From the IMG/VR virus record IMGVR_UViG_3300009285_001124, positions 1-23,111 of that record: 23,111 bases of DNA; one strand, written 5' to 3'. A program made the position numbers and the translations under genes. The DNA comes from a virus. A model generated the notes under the pieces. The model worked only from the letters and a program-made list of their open reading frames with translations, did not search any database and was not told the DNA's origin. This document shows, one piece after another, positions 1,459 to 20,183 of the stretch; positions within the stretch are counted from its first letter, which is position 1; each line of letters starts with the position of its first letter.

Positions 1459-3528
1459 TCAGCCGAGCAGGACGCGGTACTCGGCGGTTATGCCATTGTC
1501 CGGATGGACGAACAGCAAGCTCTGCGCCGGGGTGGTCGCGGCGGCGATAGTCTCACGGCTGAACGGATCGTAGGTCTGCAAGGTGCCGCACACCCGCAGG
1601 GTCATCGTCCCAATCTCGATGGATGAGGTGCGATGCCAGTGCCCGCAGTTGTGAACGATGATGCCATCAGCAACGAACGACTCGTCTTCCACCACCGTCA
1701 GGTTATATACGGAGACGGTCGGCCCCTTCTCCGCCTTCTTGACCCGAGAGGCGTTGGCTCCCTCCAAGACGAACGTGCCGGGATAGCGGGCGGGAGTCTC
1801 CATGAACTGTAGGCGCCAACGATCCCGTTGGGCCACGGGCCTGCCCATAATGGAGTGTTCCCTACCCGCCCTCTTTTCGAAGTGGAGGTTTACTCGCCAG
1901 CCGAGGGTCTGCGCGAGGATCTTCAAGCCGACAGCGAGAGGACGGCTTACCGTTGAGCAGGTCCACGCATACTGCTGGTCCCGGTGTCCGTCTGCGTCCA
2001 AGTAGCCTTCGATGAAACGCCTGCGCCACTCCCTGGGACATCCGAGTAGCCAGCCGGGTAGGGTCTTGCCGTGGGCGTATTTGCCAAACTGCCCCTCAAG
2101 CCAGGCCGCCAGGTCTTTCCCATTGATGCCGACCTGCGGGGAGGGTCCGGCCGTTACGGTATGGGGACCGAAGCCCATCTCGTCTAGCTTCTGTCCGAGG
2201 ATCGGGGCCTGTTCCTGGGAGCAGGCGATGAAGACCCTGTTTTGTCCGCAGTAGCCATCCCCCACCCACCGACCGGCCAGATACATGAGATCTTCCGTCA
2301 CATCGAAGCGCCGGCACCTCTTGTCTGTCCAGGATGGAGGAATCACGGGTACGGGGTCTGTCCGATTTGGCGACAGCCAGAATGTCCCGACCGCATCTTT
2401 CGCCTTGCGCCACTTCGGCTCTGCAAACCTTCCTGGGGTGCCGAGGCGTTTCCTCGTCAGGATGGGGTGCTCGGGCGTGCAGGTAAAAGAGGGATGTCCT
2501 TGCCCGATCAGGGTCACGGTCGCCGCGTCGCGGGTCTTCACATCTAGTACTGGACGCCAGCGGCCAAGATGCGTCAGAACCAGATCGCCGCACTTAACCT
2601 GCTCGATGGGAATTACGCCTTTCGCCGTCACAACCGTGGTTCCGGCGGGGAAGCACGCCAAATCGTCGAACGGGGGGATCTGCCCGGCCGTGCTCATGTC
2701 CCGCCAGGCCATCGCCTTCTTCCAAAACTGATACCAGGGGAGACCGCCGTAGCCGCCGCCGCGGAACAGGTCCCCGTGCGTCAAAAGGCAGCCGTAGGAA
2801 CCGACTGTGTCGACGACGATGCGGCCGGTTTCGCCCGGCTGATCGGCGCGGGCGATCTGCCAGGTCACCCGCGGTTCCCTCGTCCTCTCTTGGGCGATCA
2901 GGTAGGCGATCCGGTCGGCGTTCGTGTCCGGCGAGTAGGGCATCGCCTTGCCGCCGATGCGTCCATGATTGCCGGGCAGGCACACCACATGCACCCGGTC
3001 GAAGCCGCCCGCCAGCCGCAGGGCAAGATCAGAGAGTAGGCGTCCGACACCGAAAGACTGCTCGACCAGGGAGGCGTCGATCTCGTGTTCCTGCCCGGAG
3101 AAGATCTGCTCCCCGCCGACCAGATCCCCTAAAACCCAGAGGCGCACCGCGCGGACAGGATGGTCGGCCCGCTGGATCTCCGCCAAAGACAGGATCTTGT
3201 CGGCGTACCGTCCCACCCGGGTCTCGCAGACCTCCCGGCTGTAGTCGGGGGTGACCGCCCCGTAATGCCAGTCCGAACACATGGCCACACAGGTCTCTTC
3301 GGTGCGGGTGCGGGGATCCCTGGTCGGTTTGGGGATGGCCGGTTTCTCCCATGAGGAGAAGGCGGCGCGGGCAGCCAGCATGATCGTCTCCTCCAGACGG
3401 ATCCGCTGCTCCCGCTCCCGGGCCAGCGTTTTGGACAGTCGGCGCACCTCGGAGCGTAGATCCTGTTTGGTGGCTTCCTCCTCGGCGGCCTTCTGGGCGG
3501 CGAAGGCCGCTATATCATCGGAGGGCAT
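1459..3528 (-). CDS. Calcineurin-like metallophosphoesterase containing a LAGLIDADG intein
   Basis: The 689-residue precursor starts at the ATG at 3528, eight bases after GAGGA; an in-frame ATG at 3555 is possible but lacks a better site. Residues 5-55 look like a coiled coil. The phosphoesterase signature is complete: SDWHYG (Asp86, His88), GDLVGG (Asp135), GNHGRIGG (Asn187, His188), LLTHGD (His251) and, after the intein, CGHWH (His630, His632). These ligands define dinuclear-metal nucleases and phosphatases of the Mre11/SbcD-like superfamily, so a DNA nuclease or end-processing role is plausible but unproven. The intein occupies residues 292-627, between FDDLA and CGHWH; splicing would restore an uninterrupted enzyme of 353 residues. 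The gene overlaps the preceding 67-residue gene by 14 bases. Domain calls are firm; the substrate is unknown. Confidence 0.93.
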   Translation of the reverse strand: MPSDDIAAFAAQKAAEEEATKQDLRSEVRRLSKTLAREREQRIRLEETIMLAARAAFSSWEKPAIPKPTRDPRTRTEETCVAMCSDWHYGAVTPDYSREVCETRVGRYADKILSLAEIQRADHPVRAVRLWVLGDLVGGEQIFSGQEHEIDASLVEQSFGVGRLLSDLALRLAGGFDRVHVVCLPGNHGRIGGKAMPYSPDTNADRIAYLIAQERTREPRVTWQIARADQPGETGRIVVDTVGSYGCLLTHGDLFRGGGYGGLPWYQFWKKAMAWRDMSTAGQIPPFDDLACFPAGTTVVTAKGVIPIEQVKCGDLVLTHLGRWRPVLDVKTRDAATVTLIGQGHPSFTCTPEHPILTRKRLGTPGRFAEPKWRKAKDAVGTFWLSPNRTDPVPVIPPSWTDKRCRRFDVTEDLMYLAGRWVGDGYCGQNRVFIACSQEQAPILGQKLDEMGFGPHTVTAGPSPQVGINGKDLAAWLEGQFGKYAHGKTLPGWLLGCPREWRRRFIEGYLDADGHRDQQYAWTCSTVSRPLAVGLKILAQTLGWRVNLHFEKRAGREHSIMGRPVAQRDRWRLQFMETPARYPGTFVLEGANASRVKKAEKGPTVSVYNLTVVEDESFVADGIIVHNCGHWHRTSSIEIGTMTLRVCGTLQTYDPFSRETIAAATTPAQSLLFVHPDNGITAEYRVLLG
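1648..2655 (-). mobile_element. Intein with two-motif LAGLIDADG homing endonuclease
   Basis: The element is 336 codons, from Cys292 to Asn627 of the precursor. The N-terminal splicing block begins CFPAGTTVVTAKGVIPIEQV. The TxxH motif of block B is TPEH (residues 351-354). The endonuclease motifs are LAGRWVGDG (417-425) and IEGYLDADG (506-514), each keeping the acidic residue that binds catalytic metal. The C-terminal block ends SFVADGIIVHN followed by Cys628 as the +1 nucleophile. All residues expected for class 1 splicing (Cys1, TxxH, His-Asn, Cys+1) are present, so both splicing and homing look intact. The element sits in frame with no other disruption of the host gene. Confidence 0.93.
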
Positions 3529-3718
3529 TGCGTAATTCCTCGGCGGTGACCTCAACGCCGTGCAGGGCGAGCCATTCGGTGATTTGCGGCCAGGTCAGGC
3601 CAAGCTGGCGGCCTTTGTTCGCCTGCTCCCAAAGTCCCGCCGTTTTGAGCCGTTGGGCGGGTGAGGGCCGTGCGTGTTGGGCGGCCCAGTCGTCGATGGT
3701 CGGCGTGTCTCCGGTCAC
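3515..3718 (-). CDS. Small helix-turn-helix-like protein
   Basis: The 67-residue product is read from a GTG at 3718, four bases after AGGAGG (minus strand; complement 3723-3728). An ATG at 3781 is an alternative but would overlap the DUF1353 gene. The C-terminal half (GLTWPQITEWLALHG, then VTAEELRNAL) has the helix-turn-helix look of small DNA-binding proteins. Its 3' end overlaps the phosphoesterase start by 14 bases, suggesting coupled synthesis and perhaps partnership. The DNA-binding role is inference. Confidence 0.65.
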   Translation of the reverse strand: MTGDTPTIDDWAAQHARPSPAQRLKTAGLWEQANKGRQLGLTWPQITEWLALHGVEVTAEELRNALR

Positions 3719-3746
3719 GTCGCCTCCTCTCTCCACGGGAAGCGTA

Positions 3747-4187
3747 CTATACGCCGGCCCGTTCTGCCAGCATACCGACACGGTCCCGGCGCCAGCAGGC
3801 CCATCCGGCGACCCGGACAGCGGCCCAGCCGACCCAGCGTTTCCAGCCGGCCCAGCCGGTCACACCCTCAAGCTTCATCAGATTGCGGAACAGCCAGTCG
3901 ACCTTCCGGCGGGTGAACGGTGCGGGGAGCCCGTCGACCCAGCCCGCATTCTGGTACAGATGATCGTGCGCCAGGGCACCTACCGCGCCCAAATCCTCGG
4001 TACCGACCAGCGAGCGGACCAGATGGGGGACCGACGCGAGGTCGGTGAGGAACAGGGCGGGGATCATGATCGTGTACCCGTCGGCGGGGACCGCGTAGTC
4101 GCATTCCAGCCGCCACAGGCCGGGTTCGATGGGGCACATGAGCGGCGGGTCCGGGAACTGGCGGAAACCGCATTCGCCTATGCTCAT
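3747..4187 (-). CDS. DUF1353-family protein with Trp-rich C-terminus
   Basis: The 146-residue product starts at the ATG overlapping the endolysin stop (ATGA). Residues 48-54 (TDLASVP) and 73-78 (AHDHLY) match the conserved T-D-xAS-P and HD-LY elements of DUF1353, a family common near phage lysis genes whose function is unknown. The C-terminal segment 111-132 carries six tryptophans, four spaced every three residues (112, 115, 118, 121), mixed with Arg and Lys. This looks like a membrane-interface helix. Position directly after the endolysin suggests a lysis-related or envelope role, but this is inference. Confidence 0.8.
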   Translation of the reverse strand: MSIGECGFRQFPDPPLMCPIEPGLWRLECDYAVPADGYTIMIPALFLTDLASVPHLVRSLVGTEDLGAVGALAHDHLYQNAGWVDGLPAPFTRRKVDWLFRNLMKLEGVTGWAGWKRWVGWAAVRVAGWACWRRDRVGMLAERAGV

Positions 4188-5398
4188 TGTTCCGCCAACT
4201 GCTTCTCCGCCCATTCCAGGCATCCGTCCACGCCGGCCCACGCCCCCGACCAGTGTTTCCAACCGTTCGGTGTGTGGTAGACGAGCCAGGCGGCGGCGGC
4301 GATGTTCGCTTCCGGGTCGAAGATCGACGCGCCAGGGAACCCTGCCGCAGTAGCACGCTCCGGCCAGTAGCGGGGGAGATGCTGGAACAAGCCTTTCGCT
4401 TTCCACTCGTCCGCGGTGGCTTCGGTCCATCCGGCGGGTTTGACCGTCCACTTCTTCCGGGAGATAGCGTTCGGATCACCGACGGATTCGCAGCGGATCA
4501 GCCCCAGCGCCTTCTTCACATCTTCTGGCTTGAAGTGCTTGGCGACGAGGGGACGCCACCGTTCGGTCGCCGCTCCCCAGCGGGACGCCTCAGCTTTTGG
4601 GAGGGCCGCCTCGACCGTGGTGAGCCGCCGTTCAAGCCGTCCGATCCTCTGCGCTGCGGCGGCCTGCGCCTCCTCTGCGGCCTTGAGCCGAGCCATGATC
4701 CTGAGCCGCCACGGCCTGCCCCCCGGTGCCGGTTCGTCCAGGATCGCCTTAGCCATCCGGGTCAACTTCGCAACGTCCAACGCGCCGGGGTCCCAGTGGT
4801 CGTTGCCGGGGACATGCTGATGCCCGCACAGGAACGGGACGCCGGGCCGGCCGTTGATGCCGTCCCGCCATTCCGCCCAGGACATGCGGTAGGGGGTGGT
4901 GAAGCCCCAGGAGCCGGATGCGGACCACTTGTTCGGCCAGTTGTCGAGGGCGGGCCGCAGTTCGGGCACCGCGGTTACCACGTCGGCGAGCCATCCGGCC
5001 GCGAGGCCGTACATGCCGTCGGACCATTTGGGCGGGGTGGCGGCCATGCTGACGATTTCGACCTGGACGCAGTGGGAGCCGCGATGGTTGGTTTCCGGGT
5101 CGCCGCTGCGGTGGAGCAGGGCGTAGGAGGTGAGGTTCAGGTCACAATGCTGATGCTTGACCTGTTCGCCCGGCTTCAACGTGACGGTCCCGGCCGGGGT
5201 CCAGTACGATTTGGCGGGGAGGGAGTGCGGGTCGCCCGCCAGGCCGAGCGTGAAATGCGGCGGGTAGGGGTAGTCGTAGAGGCGTAGCCCTTCGGTGGTG
5301 TGGATGACGATACGGCCGGGGCTTCCGCCGCCGCGTGGGGCCTCCCCGGTGCGTTTGGTGGAGACGACGATCTTCTCATAGCCGGGCAGCCACATCAT
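4184..5398 (-). CDS. Endolysin: N-acetylmuramoyl-L-alanine amidase plus lytic-transglycosylase-like domain
   Basis: The 404-residue protein has two predicted catalytic domains. Residues about 25-215 form an Amidase_2/PGRP-type domain that would cut the bond between muramic acid and L-alanine. It has GRIVIHTTEG with zinc ligand His33, and CGHQHVPGNDHWDPG (191-205) supplying further His and the Asp-Pro-Gly typical of the last ligand. Residues 230-265 look like a coiled-coil linker. Residues about 285-390 resemble a soluble lytic transglycosylase: GLIRCESVGDPNAIS places Glu304 as the likely catalytic acid, and GLFQHLPRYW matches the GLMQ-type motif. No signal peptide is seen, so export by a holin is expected. 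Two adjacent ATG codons begin the gene, the first overlapping the upstream TGA (ATGA). It follows the holin candidate. Confidence 0.93.
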   Translation of the reverse strand: MMWLPGYEKIVVSTKRTGEAPRGGGSPGRIVIHTTEGLRLYDYPYPPHFTLGLAGDPHSLPAKSYWTPAGTVTLKPGEQVKHQHCDLNLTSYALLHRSGDPETNHRGSHCVQVEIVSMAATPPKWSDGMYGLAAGWLADVVTAVPELRPALDNWPNKWSASGSWGFTTPYRMSWAEWRDGINGRPGVPFLCGHQHVPGNDHWDPGALDVAKLTRMAKAILDEPAPGGRPWRLRIMARLKAAEEAQAAAAQRIGRLERRLTTVEAALPKAEASRWGAATERWRPLVAKHFKPEDVKKALGLIRCESVGDPNAISRKKWTVKPAGWTEATADEWKAKGLFQHLPRYWPERATAAGFPGASIFDPEANIAAAAWLVYHTPNGWKHWSGAWAGVDGCLEWAEKQLAEQ

Positions 5399-5532: not shown

Positions 5533-5849
5533 CAGAGTAGCACCCGGAGGGCTTCGCCGGCGGCGGTGATGAACACGACCAGGCCACTGATCCACGCTTT
5601 CTGCTGCCGCGACCAGGAGACTTTCACGCCGCCGTTGGATAGCAGGGCTTCGATGCGTTGCAGCCGGTGAATGCCGCCGTCGGGGTTGCGGCCCCCGCCC
5701 GCAAACTCGGTTTTCCGGGTTCCGAGCCAGCCGTCCGCGAGTTCACTAATGCACAGGCTGTTGCGTTCGGAGGTGCGTTCCAGCAGGCAGAGCCGCTCGC
5801 TCGTGGTCGTCTCCAAGTGGATGACCCTTTCCGTAAGTGTTGGTGTCAT
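5532..5849 (-). CDS. Holin candidate with one C-terminal membrane segment
   Basis: The 105-residue protein begins MTPTLTERVIHLETTTS, has a helical, probably coiled-coil N-terminal half, and ends with a single hydrophobic stretch (WISGLVVFITAAGEALRVLL) preceded by a basic patch (SRQQKAW). The small size, single transmembrane helix and position between tail genes and endolysin fit holins or holin-like membrane proteins. No specific holin family is recognised. Start and stop overlap both neighbours by the usual stop/start junctions. The membrane segment is clear; the holin role is positional inference. Confidence 0.7.
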   Translation of the reverse strand: MTPTLTERVIHLETTTSERLCLLERTSERNSLCISELADGWLGTRKTEFAGGGRNPDGGIHRLQRIEALLSNGGVKVSWSRQQKAWISGLVVFITAAGEALRVLL

Positions 5850-6343
5850 GTTGCCGCCCGGTAGATGAGTTGGCCGCGTATCCGGTCACCGTAGCCCCAT
5901 GCCGCCGGCGACGCGTGGGTGACCACACCGTCCGCCGTCTTCGCATTCCACAGCAGCTTCACCGTGGCCGCGGCGGTGGAGGAGGAGTAGTGGATGATGG
6001 TCCAGGCGTCGTAGGCGGAGATGTCGTGGAGGATGCCGGAGCCGCAGCGTAGATTGTTGTTCATGTTGCCGTTGACTGGTAGGGATACCGTGTAGTCGCC
6101 GGAGCCGGCGGTGGAGCCGAGCAGGAACGTGTAGGCGCAGAAGACCAGGTTGCCGACCCGCAGGTAGTGGCCGGCGTAGCCGGCGGGGACCGGGTTAGTC
6201 ACAGACGCGGTGAGGGCGGGCGAGTATGCGGCCCAGCCGGTGTGATCCCCGGCCGCGTTCAGATTGTCGCGGATCTGGGCGTTGAACAGGGCCGCGTCGG
6301 GAACCTGCCCGGTGGTGAAGGTCGTAGGGTTAGCCCAGGCCAT
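5846..6343 (-). CDS. Fibre-like minor tail protein, paralogue 3 of 3
   Basis: The 165-residue product begins MAWANPTTFTTGQVPDAA. The N-terminal pattern W-x-P-TT-x-TGQ, then IRDNLNAAGDHTGW and SPAL, is shared with the two genes upstream. In many phage tail-fibre and minor tail proteins a similar 'TGQ..T..dlN..iRDNL' segment precedes a beta-rich domain. The remaining 120 residues are beta-rich (GNLVFCAYTFLLGS, GDYTVSLPVNG), consistent with a small trimeric or jelly-roll tip domain. It starts at a TAATG overlap. A receptor-contact role is inferred from position after the hub gene. Confidence 0.8.
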   Translation of the reverse strand: MAWANPTTFTTGQVPDAALFNAQIRDNLNAAGDHTGWAAYSPALTASVTNPVPAGYAGHYLRVGNLVFCAYTFLLGSTAGSGDYTVSLPVNGNMNNNLRCGSGILHDISAYDAWTIIHYSSSTAAATVKLLWNAKTADGVVTHASPAAWGYGDRIRGQLIYRAAT

Positions 6344-6882
6344 TAGCGGATCTCGTAGTGCAGGTCGAGGTGGATCTGGTCGGAGGAGGCGAAGGCGAAC
6401 GGTGCGGCGCCGGTGACCCAGGTTTCGGTGGAGCCGGTCGAAGTGTATTTCAGTTTGCACACCGCGGAGGAATGCTGGACGGCGATCACATGATGTGTGT
6501 CGGCGGCGGACGCGTCGTAGATGGCGCCGCCGCCCAGGACGTGCTGTCTTGCAGCGTCGGAGGAGGACATGGCGAGCGGGAGGGAAACAGTGTAGATGCC
6601 GGTCCCTGCCGCGGTGCCGGAGGTTCCGAAGCGGATCTGGCAGGAGGCGTGGACCAGGCCGTTCGTCGTCGTACCCACCCGGATCCACGAACCCGATTGG
6701 ATCGGGCTGGCTCCCAGGTTGGGGGCGGTTGTACCCGACGTGATGGCCAGCGCGGGCGCCCAGGTGGAGAATGCCAGATGGTCGCCGACACAGTTCAGGT
6801 TGTCCCGCAGATACAAGTTCATCGCCGCGGCGGTGACTAGTTCGGCGGTCTTCCACGTGGTTTTCGGGACGGTCCAGCTCAT
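6343..6882 (-). CDS. Fibre-like minor tail protein, paralogue 2 of 3
   Basis: The 179-residue product starts MSWTVPKTTWKTAELVTA; the ATG at 6882 overlaps the upstream stop as ATGA, and a longer frame from 7188 is a shadow of the upstream gene. It shares the W-x-P-TTW-T-LVT and LRDNLNCVGDH elements and the FSTWAPAL segment with its neighbours. The C-terminal part is beta-rich and shares GIYTVSLPLA with paralogue 3 (GDYTVSLPVN). It is probably a distal tail or tip component. It differs from paralogue 1 mostly after residue 55. Confidence 0.8.
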   Translation of the reverse strand: MSWTVPKTTWKTAELVTAAAMNLYLRDNLNCVGDHLAFSTWAPALAITSGTTAPNLGASPIQSGSWIRVGTTTNGLVHASCQIRFGTSGTAAGTGIYTVSLPLAMSSSDAARQHVLGGGAIYDASAADTHHVIAVQHSSAVCKLKYTSTGSTETWVTGAAPFAFASSDQIHLDLHYEIR

Positions 6883-7451
6883 GTGTTGGTCCGGTAGGTG
6901 AGGATGCCGGAGAAGCGGCAGCCGGCAATAGAAAAGTCGGCGCCGGTAGAGATCCCGGGAAGCGGCCAGCTCTTCGTCGCGTACGGCGGCTGGAGGGAGG
7001 TTCCGGCCCTGGTCCCCCAGAAGCGCACGGCTGTTTTGCTTTGCAGGACGGGGGTGAGCAGATGGATGTTGTCGGGAGCGGCGGCGTAGGCGTAGGCCCA
7101 GCCGGCGGCGACCGTGTCCGAAGCGGTCGAGGCGGCCCAGGGGAGCGGGGCGATGACCGGCAGGACAGAGGAGCCGAGGACCATCCATTGGGCGCCGTTG
7201 GCGGTGGTGCCGAACTGGAAGTCGAAGGTGCAGATGGCGAGCCGGCCGACTCTCAGTTTGCGGCCCCGCTTCGCACCGTCCGAACCGACTTCAGCGCCGA
7301 AGGCGGTCGAAGTGTGGTAGAGTTCCGGGTTCCAGGTTGACCAGCCGGTATGATCCCCCGCCGCAGCCATCGAATTGTTCCAGTCGACGAACTGCTGTTT
7401 GGTCACCAGCTGCCCGGTACTCCACGTGGTAGGGGTCACCCAGGTAGGCAT
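6879..7451 (-). CDS. Fibre-like minor tail protein, paralogue 1 of 3
   Basis: The 190-residue product begins MPTWVTPTTWSTGQLVTK and contains MAAAGDHTGWSTWNPEL, aligning with the two downstream genes over the first 50 residues. The C-terminal part is beta-rich but diverges from them (AICTFDFQFGTTANG, then a longer tail ending SGILTYRTNT). It starts one base after the hub gene's stop. The conserved N-terminus probably docks the protein to the tail, with the variable C-terminus exposed; this is inferred from how phage fibre proteins usually diversify. Confidence 0.8.
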   Translation of the reverse strand: MPTWVTPTTWSTGQLVTKQQFVDWNNSMAAAGDHTGWSTWNPELYHTSTAFGAEVGSDGAKRGRKLRVGRLAICTFDFQFGTTANGAQWMVLGSSVLPVIAPLPWAASTASDTVAAGWAYAYAAAPDNIHLLTPVLQSKTAVRFWGTRAGTSLQPPYATKSWPLPGISTGADFSIAGCRFSGILTYRTNT

Positions 7452-14736: not shown

Positions 14737-16593
14737 TCAGTTTCCGGGAGTCAGGACGAGAGTGGCCTGCCCGGCCTCTAACCCGGTATTGTCCGCCGAT
14801 GCGGTAAGCGTTTCGGTCAGGGCCGCCCGGGCGGCCAGGCTGTCGGCTAGTACGGCGGTCGCCGCTGTTTCGGCGAGGGCGGCGGTGCTGGCCAGTCGGC
14901 TGCTGCGGGTGGCGGTGTAGGGTCCGGGGAGGAGCAAGTTCAGGTGGCCGACCGCGGCGGATATGGTCAGGGCGGCGGCGCGGAGCCGGTGGGTCAGAGC
15001 GAGGGTTCCGGCTGTGGTCGAGGAGGTGAGGGCGGCGCCGGTCATGTCGGTTACCGCCCCGGTGTCTATCGCGGCTGCTGCGACGCTCGCTGAGAGGGCG
15101 GCCCCGGTCAAAGGGTGGCCGAGTTTCAGATCTGCGGCGACGGTTGACGCCGATACGGCGGCGGCGGCGAGTCGGTGGACCGGTGTCGCATCCAGGGCTC
15201 CCGAGACGGTGGACGCTGCCGCCGCGGCCCCGGCCAGATGGTGGGTGAGGCTGAGCCCGGCGCCCGCGACACTGGCAGTGACGGCCGACCCGGTGATCCG
15301 GCGGGCGAGTTTCAGCCCGGCCGCAGCGGTTGAGGCGGTCAGGGCCGCGCCGCTGAGGGGGATCGTCACGGTCAGTCTGGCGGTGCTGCTGCTGGCGGCG
15401 GTGGCGGCCCCATTTAGTTTGTGGGTTAGCCGCAGATCCCCGGCCGTGGCCGAAGCCGTAGTGGTAACACCAGCGAGGTTGCGGACAGTGTCAAGGCTGG
15501 CGCTAGTCGTGGATGCGGCGGCGGCCGCCCCGGCGGCCGTGTGGCCGACTTTGAGTGCGGCGGCTGTGACGCTGGCCGAGACGACGGCCCCGGTGGGCCG
15601 CTTGTAATCGTCCAGGACGGCCCCGGTGGTGCTGGCCGCTGTGGCGGCACCGGTTAGGCTGTGGATGATTGTGAGGGCCGCTAGGGTGGCTGTCGCGGAT
15701 TCGGCGGCCCCGCCGAGCGGGATGGTCTGTTCGGCGGTCAGCCCGGCCGTGGCGACGGATGCTGATTCGGCGGCGCCGGTTAGGCTGCGGGCGAGTTTCA
15801 GCCCGGCCGCGGCGGCCGAGGCTGAAGTAGCGGCGCCGGTCAGGGGATGGCCGACCCGTAGGGCTGCCGTAGTAGTTGATGCGGATACGGCGGCCCCGGC
15901 AGGCCGGTGGGTGATCTTCAGGGTGCCACTAGTGGTGGAGGCGGCCGACGCTGCCGCGTAAAGGTCGGATCGTATGACCGCGCCGGTCAGGGTCCACGTG
16001 TTGCCCTGCAAGTCGTCGTTGACGGTCTCCCCCGGATCCCAAGGGGAGGAGTCGAACTTCGGATTGGCGACCAGCACACCGCCGTCGTAGATGGCAGCCT
16101 CATAGATGCGGCCCGCCCACGAGTAGTAACCCGACCCGTCATTGCCAACTGTGAGTGGCTCTCCCGAGTCGATGATGCTGGTCGGTGCTGCGCCGAGGGC
16201 CGCGTCGCCCAATCGGGTCCAGTCTGTGCCGTTGGCCGAGTAGTAGAAGCCGACTTCCCACACGGTGCCGTTGTCCAGGTCCAACTCGGCCTTCACCCAG
16301 ATGTCGGATACGCCGTCGGTGAGGGAGGCGGCGGTCTGCAACACCGCGGTCGATGCGGCCGTGCCGCCGTCGGCCCCGTCGTCCCAGGCCAGAAACAGGC
16401 TGCCGTCTTCGAGGAAGAGCAGATACCACGCGTAGGCCAGCGCCCCGGACTGGGCGGCGACGATCGGATAGTTGGCGGGGGTCCAGTCGTCTGCCCGCAG
16501 TCGGGCGACGATCTTCAGATCCCCGGCGATAGCCGCGGTCAGGTCCGATGTGGCAACGTCGGCGGACCCGTCGAAGTAAGCCCAACGGGCCAT
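14737..16593 (-). CDS. LamG-like protein with long Ala-rich repeat domain
   Basis: The 618-residue protein has three parts. Residues 1-210 resemble a concanavalin/LamG jelly roll: RWAYFDGSADVATSDLTA at the start, SDIWVKAELDLDNGTVWEV in the middle and GRIYEAAIYDGGVLVANPKF near the end are standard strand motifs, and such domains often bind carbohydrate. Residues 211-553 hold about 17 copies of a 20-residue unit, consensus xHxLTGAAxxASxxxAxLxL. Residues 554-618 are Ala-rich with a short beta ending. It lies in the accessory block between capsid and connector genes, so a virion fibre or surface role is likely. The repeat fold is unknown to me. Its ATG overlaps the stop of a 15-codon ORF. Confidence 0.85.
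   Translation of the reverse strand: MARWAYFDGSADVATSDLTAAIAGDLKIVARLRADDWTPANYPIVAAQSGALAYAWYLLFLEDGSLFLAWDDGADGGTAASTAVLQTAASLTDGVSDIWVKAELDLDNGTVWEVGFYYSANGTDWTRLGDAALGAAPTSIIDSGEPLTVGNDGSGYYSWAGRIYEAAIYDGGVLVANPKFDSSPWDPGETVNDDLQGNTWTLTGAVIRSDLYAAASAASTTSGTLKITHRPAGAAVSASTTTAALRVGHPLTGAATSASAAAAGLKLARSLTGAAESASVATAGLTAEQTIPLGGAAESATATLAALTIIHSLTGAATAASTTGAVLDDYKRPTGAVVSASVTAAALKVGHTAAGAAAAASTTSASLDTVRNLAGVTTTASATAGDLRLTHKLNGAATAASSSTARLTVTIPLSGAALTASTAAAGLKLARRITGSAVTASVAGAGLSLTHHLAGAAAAASTVSGALDATPVHRLAAAAVSASTVAADLKLGHPLTGAALSASVAAAAIDTGAVTDMTGAALTSSTTAGTLALTHRLRAAALTISAAVGHLNLLLPGPYTATRSSRLASTAALAETAATAVLADSLAARAALTETLTASADNTGLEAGQATLVLTPGN
14935..15963. repeat. About 17 diverged 60-bp coding repeats
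   Basis: The units encode a 20-residue motif, for example GHPLTGAATSASAAAAGLKL, ARSLTGAAESASVATAGLTA and THHLAGAAAAASTVSGALDA. A few units are 17 or 22 residues long. Spacing is constant although the residues vary, which suggests old duplication with selection on structure rather than recent slippage. The antisense frames over this stretch are also open because of the Ala/Gly-rich codons. Confidence 0.85.
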
Positions 16594-19241: not shown

Positions 19242-20183
19242 CTAGGTGATGCAGGTGTACAGGTAGTAGCCTAGTTCGGAGGCGACGATCTTATGCACGA
19301 ACGCCGACTCCACCGTCAGTTCCGGCATCGCGTCCTCGCGGGGAATGAACTCCCGCTGCACCCGCATGCCCTCCTGGGAGCCTTCAAGGCCGGACCAGAC
19401 GAACGTTGCCCCCGCGGTTGCCACACCCGGGGACGGGTTCGGATCCACATACAGCAGCAGGGCACTGTCGCCCAGAATGCTGGAATAGGATGCGGTGGCA
19501 CCCTCGGTCGCCGTGTTGTATCCGGCGGTCGCGATCGCCACCTCGTTCAGGCCGAGCAGGTTCGAGATGAATCCCGGCGTCGCAATACGCGGCGCATTGT
19601 CCGGCAGCCGTTCGATGATGTCCGAATGGTTCAGCAGACCACTGTACCAGGTTTCGGCGCCGAGGATCAGCTTGTTCGGAATCCGCCCAGTGTTGTACTG
19701 GATGGTCCTAATGCCGGTCGCCAGGTCCTTCAGCGGGTAGGCGGCGGCGTTCTCCCACGTCACCGACGGGGCACCGTTCGTCCCCCAGCTTGACGCGAAA
19801 GCGACCGTCGCGAACTCGATCTCCTCCCGGATATGCATGTCCTGCACCAGGCCCTTCAGCTTGGATTCCTCCAAGTTGAGGCCCGGATCAGCGTTCTTCG
19901 CGTCCTGCTCCGAAATAGACGCGGCGATCGCCCACACGTCGCAGAAATACTGCGCTTTCGTCGCCGAGAACGTGCGCTGCACGGCCCGCGTCCCGGCGGC
20001 ACGTTTCTTCGCCTCGGCCCTAAGCAGGTCTGCCCGGGACCACACGAAGTACTTGTCGGACTGCTTGCCGACCGGCACCGCCGGGAAGGCCCGGCGGGCC
20101 ACATAGGCGTTCGGTTCCATGAAATGCGCCACCGCGAAGTCGGTCAGCGCACTGTCCACGTGGACGGTGAAAGGCTCAGCCAT
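19242..20183 (-). CDS. Major capsid protein
   Basis: The 313-residue product begins MAEPFTVHVDSALTDFAVAH. The stretch AYVARRAFPAVPVGKQSDKY followed by FVW is the classic early segment of HK97-fold coat proteins of this type ('A..i.P.vpV.k.sd.y'). RIPNKLILGAETWYSGLLNH and the C-terminal region FVWSGLEG...RVQREFIPRED also match this class, as does the ending near VHKIVASELGYYLYT. It follows the protease, scaffold and decoration genes, the expected order. GAAGGGG lies six bases before the ATG. It would assemble the icosahedral shell. Confidence 0.93.
   Translation of the reverse strand: MAEPFTVHVDSALTDFAVAHFMEPNAYVARRAFPAVPVGKQSDKYFVWSRADLLRAEAKKRAAGTRAVQRTFSATKAQYFCDVWAIAASISEQDAKNADPGLNLEESKLKGLVQDMHIREEIEFATVAFASSWGTNGAPSVTWENAAAYPLKDLATGIRTIQYNTGRIPNKLILGAETWYSGLLNHSDIIERLPDNAPRIATPGFISNLLGLNEVAIATAGYNTATEGATASYSSILGDSALLLYVDPNPSPGVATAGATFVWSGLEGSQEGMRVQREFIPREDAMPELTVESAFVHKIVASELGYYLYTCIT

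Follow-up and report, generated by a model that had tools for sequence, protein, structure and literature searches.

Thirty-seven inteins have been described in the recombination directionality factors (RDFs) of cluster A1 mycobacteriophages; these hosts are putative calcineurin-like metallophosphoesterases, and the intein lies beside one of the conserved motifs in the domain (Kelley et al. 2016, PMC5050341). The RDF intein of mycobacteriophage Bethlehem spliced completely in an E. coli reporter (PMC5050341). In Bxb1 gp47, GNHD lies at residues 91-94 and GHTH at 174-177, and the RDF insertion site, as read from phage Adahisdi, is right after GNHD, the intein ending in Gly-Asn before Ser (GNHD/CSWT...TGN/SRARD; here and below a slash marks a splice junction).

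The DNA analysed here (the window) comprises positions 1 to 23,111 of the IMG/VR record IMGVR_UViG_3300009285_001124. We consider it very likely that its phrog_284 metallophosphoesterase gene carries a mobile, class-1-type LAGLIDADG intein, which would splice constitutively to form the active site of the enzyme and would spread by homing. Like the RDF inteins (Bxb1 gp47 family; Bethlehem gp51, Adahisdi gp51), the window intein has Cys1 and a homing endonuclease, and it sits beside an active-site motif of a phage calcineurin-like metallophosphoesterase. However, the RDF intein follows GNHD and ends in Gly-Asn with Ser at +1, whereas the window intein lies at FDDLA/CGHWH and ends in His-Asn with Cys at +1. 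In addition, the two sequences are barely similar (best E 0.026), and the window host is a DP1/Mre11-like protein of phrog_284 rather than a member of the Bxb1 gp47 family. Identity with the mycobacteriophage RDF allele was rejected because the insertion site differs. Precedent thus exists for the host superfamily and for the active-site logic, whereas the insertion point itself, the family of the host and the lineage of the intein are different. A full-text literature search, weak on this point since little subscription literature was covered, found no phage metallophosphoesterase inteins beyond those of the RDFs. The biology is that of an ordinary intein, in a host enzyme and at an insertion point that are apparently undescribed before. 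The earlier note on this DNA had placed the host outside the usual classes; that view does not hold, as mycobacteriophage calcineurin-like metallophosphoesterases are published intein hosts (PMC5050341), and a phrog_284 protein with a DP1/Mre11-like fold belongs to DNA metabolism, a usual intein-host category.

The intein and its splicing residues

The intein is encoded within one open frame of 698 codons (1459-3555, minus strand) without internal stop, the probable start being the ATG at 3528 with a ribosome-binding-like GAGGA upstream (Table 1). An upstream ORF of 88 aa (3515-3781) overlaps the precursor gene by a few codons. Removal of the intein leaves a 353-residue extein joined as FDDLA-CGHWH, so that the insertion point falls between Ala291 and Cys292 of the spliced protein, directly before the metal-ligand motif. 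The earlier note had proposed a complete LAGLIDADG intein of 336 residues at this place, separating FDDLA from CGHWH ahead of GHxH; its boundaries prove exact to the base, its figure of 353 residues for the spliced extein agrees with the ATG start, and signature residues, profiles and predicted fold all concur.

Table 1. Features of the intein-containing gene, in window coordinates
Feature	Position	Strand	Evidence
Intein-containing metallophosphoesterase precursor, 689 aa from ATG 3528	1459..3528	-	ORF open from TTG 3555; GAGGA
N-extein, residues 1-291, metal-ligand motifs DxH, GD, GNH, HGD	2656..3528	-	phrog_284 3.5e-40; alignment to L003, L004, L005, L006
Intein, 336 aa, Hint splicing domain with inserted LAGLIDADG endonuclease	1648..2655	-	profiles, alignments, fold model
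Cys1, splicing nucleophile	2653..2655	-	invariant in intein alignments
TPEH, splicing block B	2467..2478	-	His63 invariant
LAGLIDADG motif 1 (LAGRWVGDG, D133)	2254..2280	-	intein alignments
LAGLIDADG motif 2 (IEGYLDADG, D222)	1987..2013	-	LAGLIDADG_3; D222 invariant
His335-Asn336, C-terminal splicing residues	1648..1653	-	TIGR01443; HN invariant
C-extein, residues 292-353, starting with Cys+1 then GHWH	1462..1647	-	translation and homologue alignment
GHWH metal-ligand motif (H294, H296 of spliced protein)	1633..1644	-	both His invariant; GHxH in 87/87 relatives

The residues expected of a class 1 intein are all present (Cys1, T60PEH63, H335-N336 and Cys+1), and His63 is invariant in the alignment with the methyltransferase inteins discussed below. 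Two LAGLIDADG motifs were found, each with its acidic residue. Block F of many class-1 inteins has a canonical Asp and His; in the window intein both are substituted (VYNLTVVEDESF). These substitutions, together with the single known copy, might be seen as signs of a degenerate, non-splicing insertion, that is, a dead enzyme allele carried by a selfish or decaying element. We regard this as very unlikely, for the frame, both splice junctions, Cys1, TPEH, His-Asn and Cys+1 are intact, as are both endonuclease aspartates, and the alignment shows the block F substitutions to be common to most of the methyltransferase-intein relatives.

The insert matches Pfam Hint_2 (3.3e-07) and LAGLIDADG_3 (1e-06) above the curated cut-offs, as well as NCBIfam TIGR01443 (intein_Cterm). 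Its AlphaFold model (pLDDT 89.7, pTM 0.89) shows a Hint plus LAGLIDADG fold, and the best PDB matches of the model by Foldseek are the TliVMA intein (E 2.4e-18) and PI-SceI, the VMA1 intein (E 4.7e-16), so that the Hint fold is indicated by both profile and model; I-DmoI is also among the fold matches. The predicted architecture is thus that of TliVMA and PI-SceI, but identity to them is 15-18%, the window intein is shorter, and their host, V-ATPase subunit A, is unlike the window host. The GC3 of the intein (0.73) lies below the minimum of 0.777 across 85 windows of 336 codons in the other genes of the contig, which overlap and are non-independent; this low value is consistent with arrival from elsewhere.

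Relationship to other inteins

The closest inteins (30-38% identity) are those of DNA-cytosine methyltransferases of phages and plasmids. Full-length similarity was found to members in EBPR siphovirus 2 (gp44), Pseudomonas phage Lana (gp71), a Euzebya plasmid and IMG/VR contigs; seven phage and plasmid methyltransferase inteins align end to end at 31-36% identity. Blocks common to both groups are CFPAGT, TxEH, GRWxGDG, DADG, VYNLxVxxDES and HN; where the window intein has the Asp D133, two of the methyltransferase inteins (those of Lana and contig L111) have Asn. The methyltransferase inteins are inserted between Pro/Asp and a Cys of the catalytic region and thus, like the window intein, just before an active-site Cys that is used as +1, although the host protein and the site are different. 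A phylogenetic tree groups the window intein with the methyltransferase inteins without firm support, and no sister is firmly supported. Chance similarity can be excluded because of the profile matches, the full-length identity to seven inteins and the confident intein fold.

Further intein-like elements were observed in other contigs. A ribonucleotide-reductase-like protein (L090:765-3374) contains an apparent LAGLIDADG intein (CVSGDTLVLTDQG ... GLRAHN/CLEVN). In L124:2501-3301 (IMGVR_UViG_3300037478_000858) an intein-like element occurs at HPN/CRCAL; the resemblance of this sequence to the Mu F-like minor capsid motif points to a structural-protein host. Related inteins precede CSIC at the same site of a phage host protein in four contigs (L115, L118, L119 and L120, around 2501-3658), with PYDT, PFDT or AYDL on the N side, and these form a clade in the intein tree. 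An intein at GQPW/CAMFISW within a 1377-aa ORF (L113:2501-3460) again lies directly before a catalytic-type Cys, seemingly that in the active site of a cysteine peptidase or amidase.

Host enzyme and intein-free homologues

The host belongs to phrog_284 (exonuclease) by a profile match of 3.5e-40, with Pfam Metallophos matched only below cut-off. Its fold was read from the model of an intein-free homologue, L003 (pLDDT 77), which most resembles DP1 (Z 16.4 over 230 residues), the archaeal PolD exonuclease subunit, and Mre11 (Z 15). The metal-ligand motifs DxH, GD, GNH, H and GHxH are all present, and in an alignment of five proteins, one of them from an SPbeta-like Bacillus phage, the ligands D86, D135, N187, H188, H251, H294 and H296 never vary. 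The host is therefore an enzyme of DNA metabolism, a predicted DP1/Mre11-like nuclease. Since the metal site needs an uninterrupted chain through H294 and H296, the precursor is very probably inactive until splicing, as the earlier note had soundly reasoned from the interruption of GHWH.

Extein and insert, searched separately as that note had suggested, gave different answers: the extein retrieved phrog_284 and intein-free homologues with an intact junction, and the insert retrieved inteins in unrelated proteins. The nearest homologue, L003 (356 aa; IMG/VR contig IMGVR_UViG_3300037461_000260), is 60-61% identical to the spliced extein and reads GFKDLACGHWHKT, uninterrupted through DLA-CGHWH; in the DNA flanking the insertion site, 25 of 35 positions are identical. 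The homologues of Streptomyces phage Dagobah (38% identity, DVFMGHWH) and Actinomycetia phage DSL-LC01 (35% identity, DVYMGHWH) are likewise intein-free. The GHxH motif was uninterrupted in 87 of 87 loci, a count that gives no frequency estimate, because 80 of them were selected on their best single match in tblastn and on patterns, and one pattern extends across the junction and so under-samples intein-bearing relatives, and because near-identical loci are included (L003 and L007 are the same contig). Because L003 and all other recovered homologues are without the insert, the 336 residues represent an in-frame insertion. The reading in which they are a domain native to the enzyme family, conserved in all its members, which the earlier note had named as a refutation of its own proposal, has a negligible probability: it is refuted by these homologues, L003 at 61% identity among them, and the insert finds its best matches among inteins whose host proteins are unrelated.

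The residue preceding GHxH among the 87 loci is Met in 64, Cys in 10 and Leu in eight. A native Cys at this position in some relatives, including the nearest, meets the need of the intein for a Cys at +1. A second carrier was sought in the IMG/VR DNA with three patterns. HN/CGHWH gave one match, a chance one in a 26-aa frame of L090; HN/CGHYH gave three matches, with no metallophosphoesterase among them; and C[F/L][P/S]AGT directly after DLA gave none. The intein alone, as a single-protein query against IMG/VR, gave no match. In these searches of IMG/VR, therefore, an intein at the CGHWH site occurs in one contig only.

Gene neighbourhood and phage lineage

In the window the metallophosphoesterase gene follows a DUF1353 gene and an endolysin-like gene (4184-5398) with endolysin similarity and a C-terminal SLT domain. 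The homologue in L003 precedes the small and large terminase genes, that of DSL-LC01 adjoins the small terminase gene, and those of other relatives lie near baseplate genes or a DnaB-like helicase. The neighbourhood varies among relatives, and thus the gene context is not fixed; the placement next to lysis genes described in the earlier note applies to the window itself, through the endolysin-like gene.

Among isolates, Roseobacter and Rhizobium phages come closest in the major head protein (19242-20183, phrog_1005), at only about 31% identity, whereas for the metallophosphoesterase the closest are actinobacterial phages. Three adjacent frames at 5846-7451 have similar sequences (MPTWVTPTTWSTGQ..., MSWTVPKTTWKTAE..., MAWANPTTFTTGQ...), which suggests tandem duplicated tail or fibre genes. 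In a 618-aa Ala/Thr-rich protein (14737-16593), degenerate repeats about 18-36 residues long (LTGAAxSASxxAAxLxLxH...) are numerous, and the N-terminal part before the repeats looks lectin-like. The frame at 91-870 has weak, below-cut-off similarity to Imm5_like and DUF7666 and an Ala/Arg-rich tail.

Predicted splicing and homing, and the possibility of a switch

On the basis of the sequence features, splicing, its requirement for enzyme activity, endonuclease activity and homing are predicted to proceed as follows. The precursor would be translated as a single chain; Cys1 would begin an N-S acyl shift, followed by transesterification to Cys+1; cyclisation of Asn336, helped by His335 and the TPEH histidine, would free the intein; and ligation of FDDLA to CGHWH would form the active site. 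The predicted role of the endonuclease domain is to cleave alleles that lack the intein, for which L003 offers a candidate target sequence, and repair would copy the intein in. Splicing would be constitutive, and homing into a conserved stretch of active-site codons would account for spread. The position in the active site is best explained by the usual target selection of inteins, i.e. a conserved DNA site at which imprecise loss is costly.

The earlier note had also suggested a post-translational switch. In such a scheme splicing would be withheld until a cue arrives, which might be redox state or the binding of free Zn2+/Mn2+ to Cys+1 and the His pair next to it, and nuclease activity would thereby be timed within infection. 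The insertion site lies beside metal-ligand histidines, and zinc binding to the nucleophilic Cys reversibly blocks the mycobacterial DnaB intein (PMC7360933); therefore a metal-gated switch is conceivable. However, a beneficial switch predicts a conserved intein, and the site is empty in all 87 loci of the biased sample. A selected switch is thus argued against by the apparent rarity of an intein at the CGHWH site, and splicing is fast in the phage RDF intein, a comparable case (PMC5050341). Conditional splicing is accordingly very unlikely, and gating by metal or redox, with the enzyme's own metals on Cys+1 and the GHWH histidines controlling precursor splicing, is to be regarded as highly improbable; if it were true, the nuclease would be released only under particular infection conditions. 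The switch proposal is unsupported, and invisible, constitutive splicing fits equally well.

Constitutive splicing with homing thus remains our preferred reading. The window intein leaves the understanding of inteins in general unchanged; what it contributes is an insertion site that appears to be undescribed among phage inteins, and its endonuclease, if active, would represent a new cutting specificity. It also extends the pattern of inteins placed immediately ahead of catalytic residues; in this case the native Cys before GHWH serves as the +1 residue.
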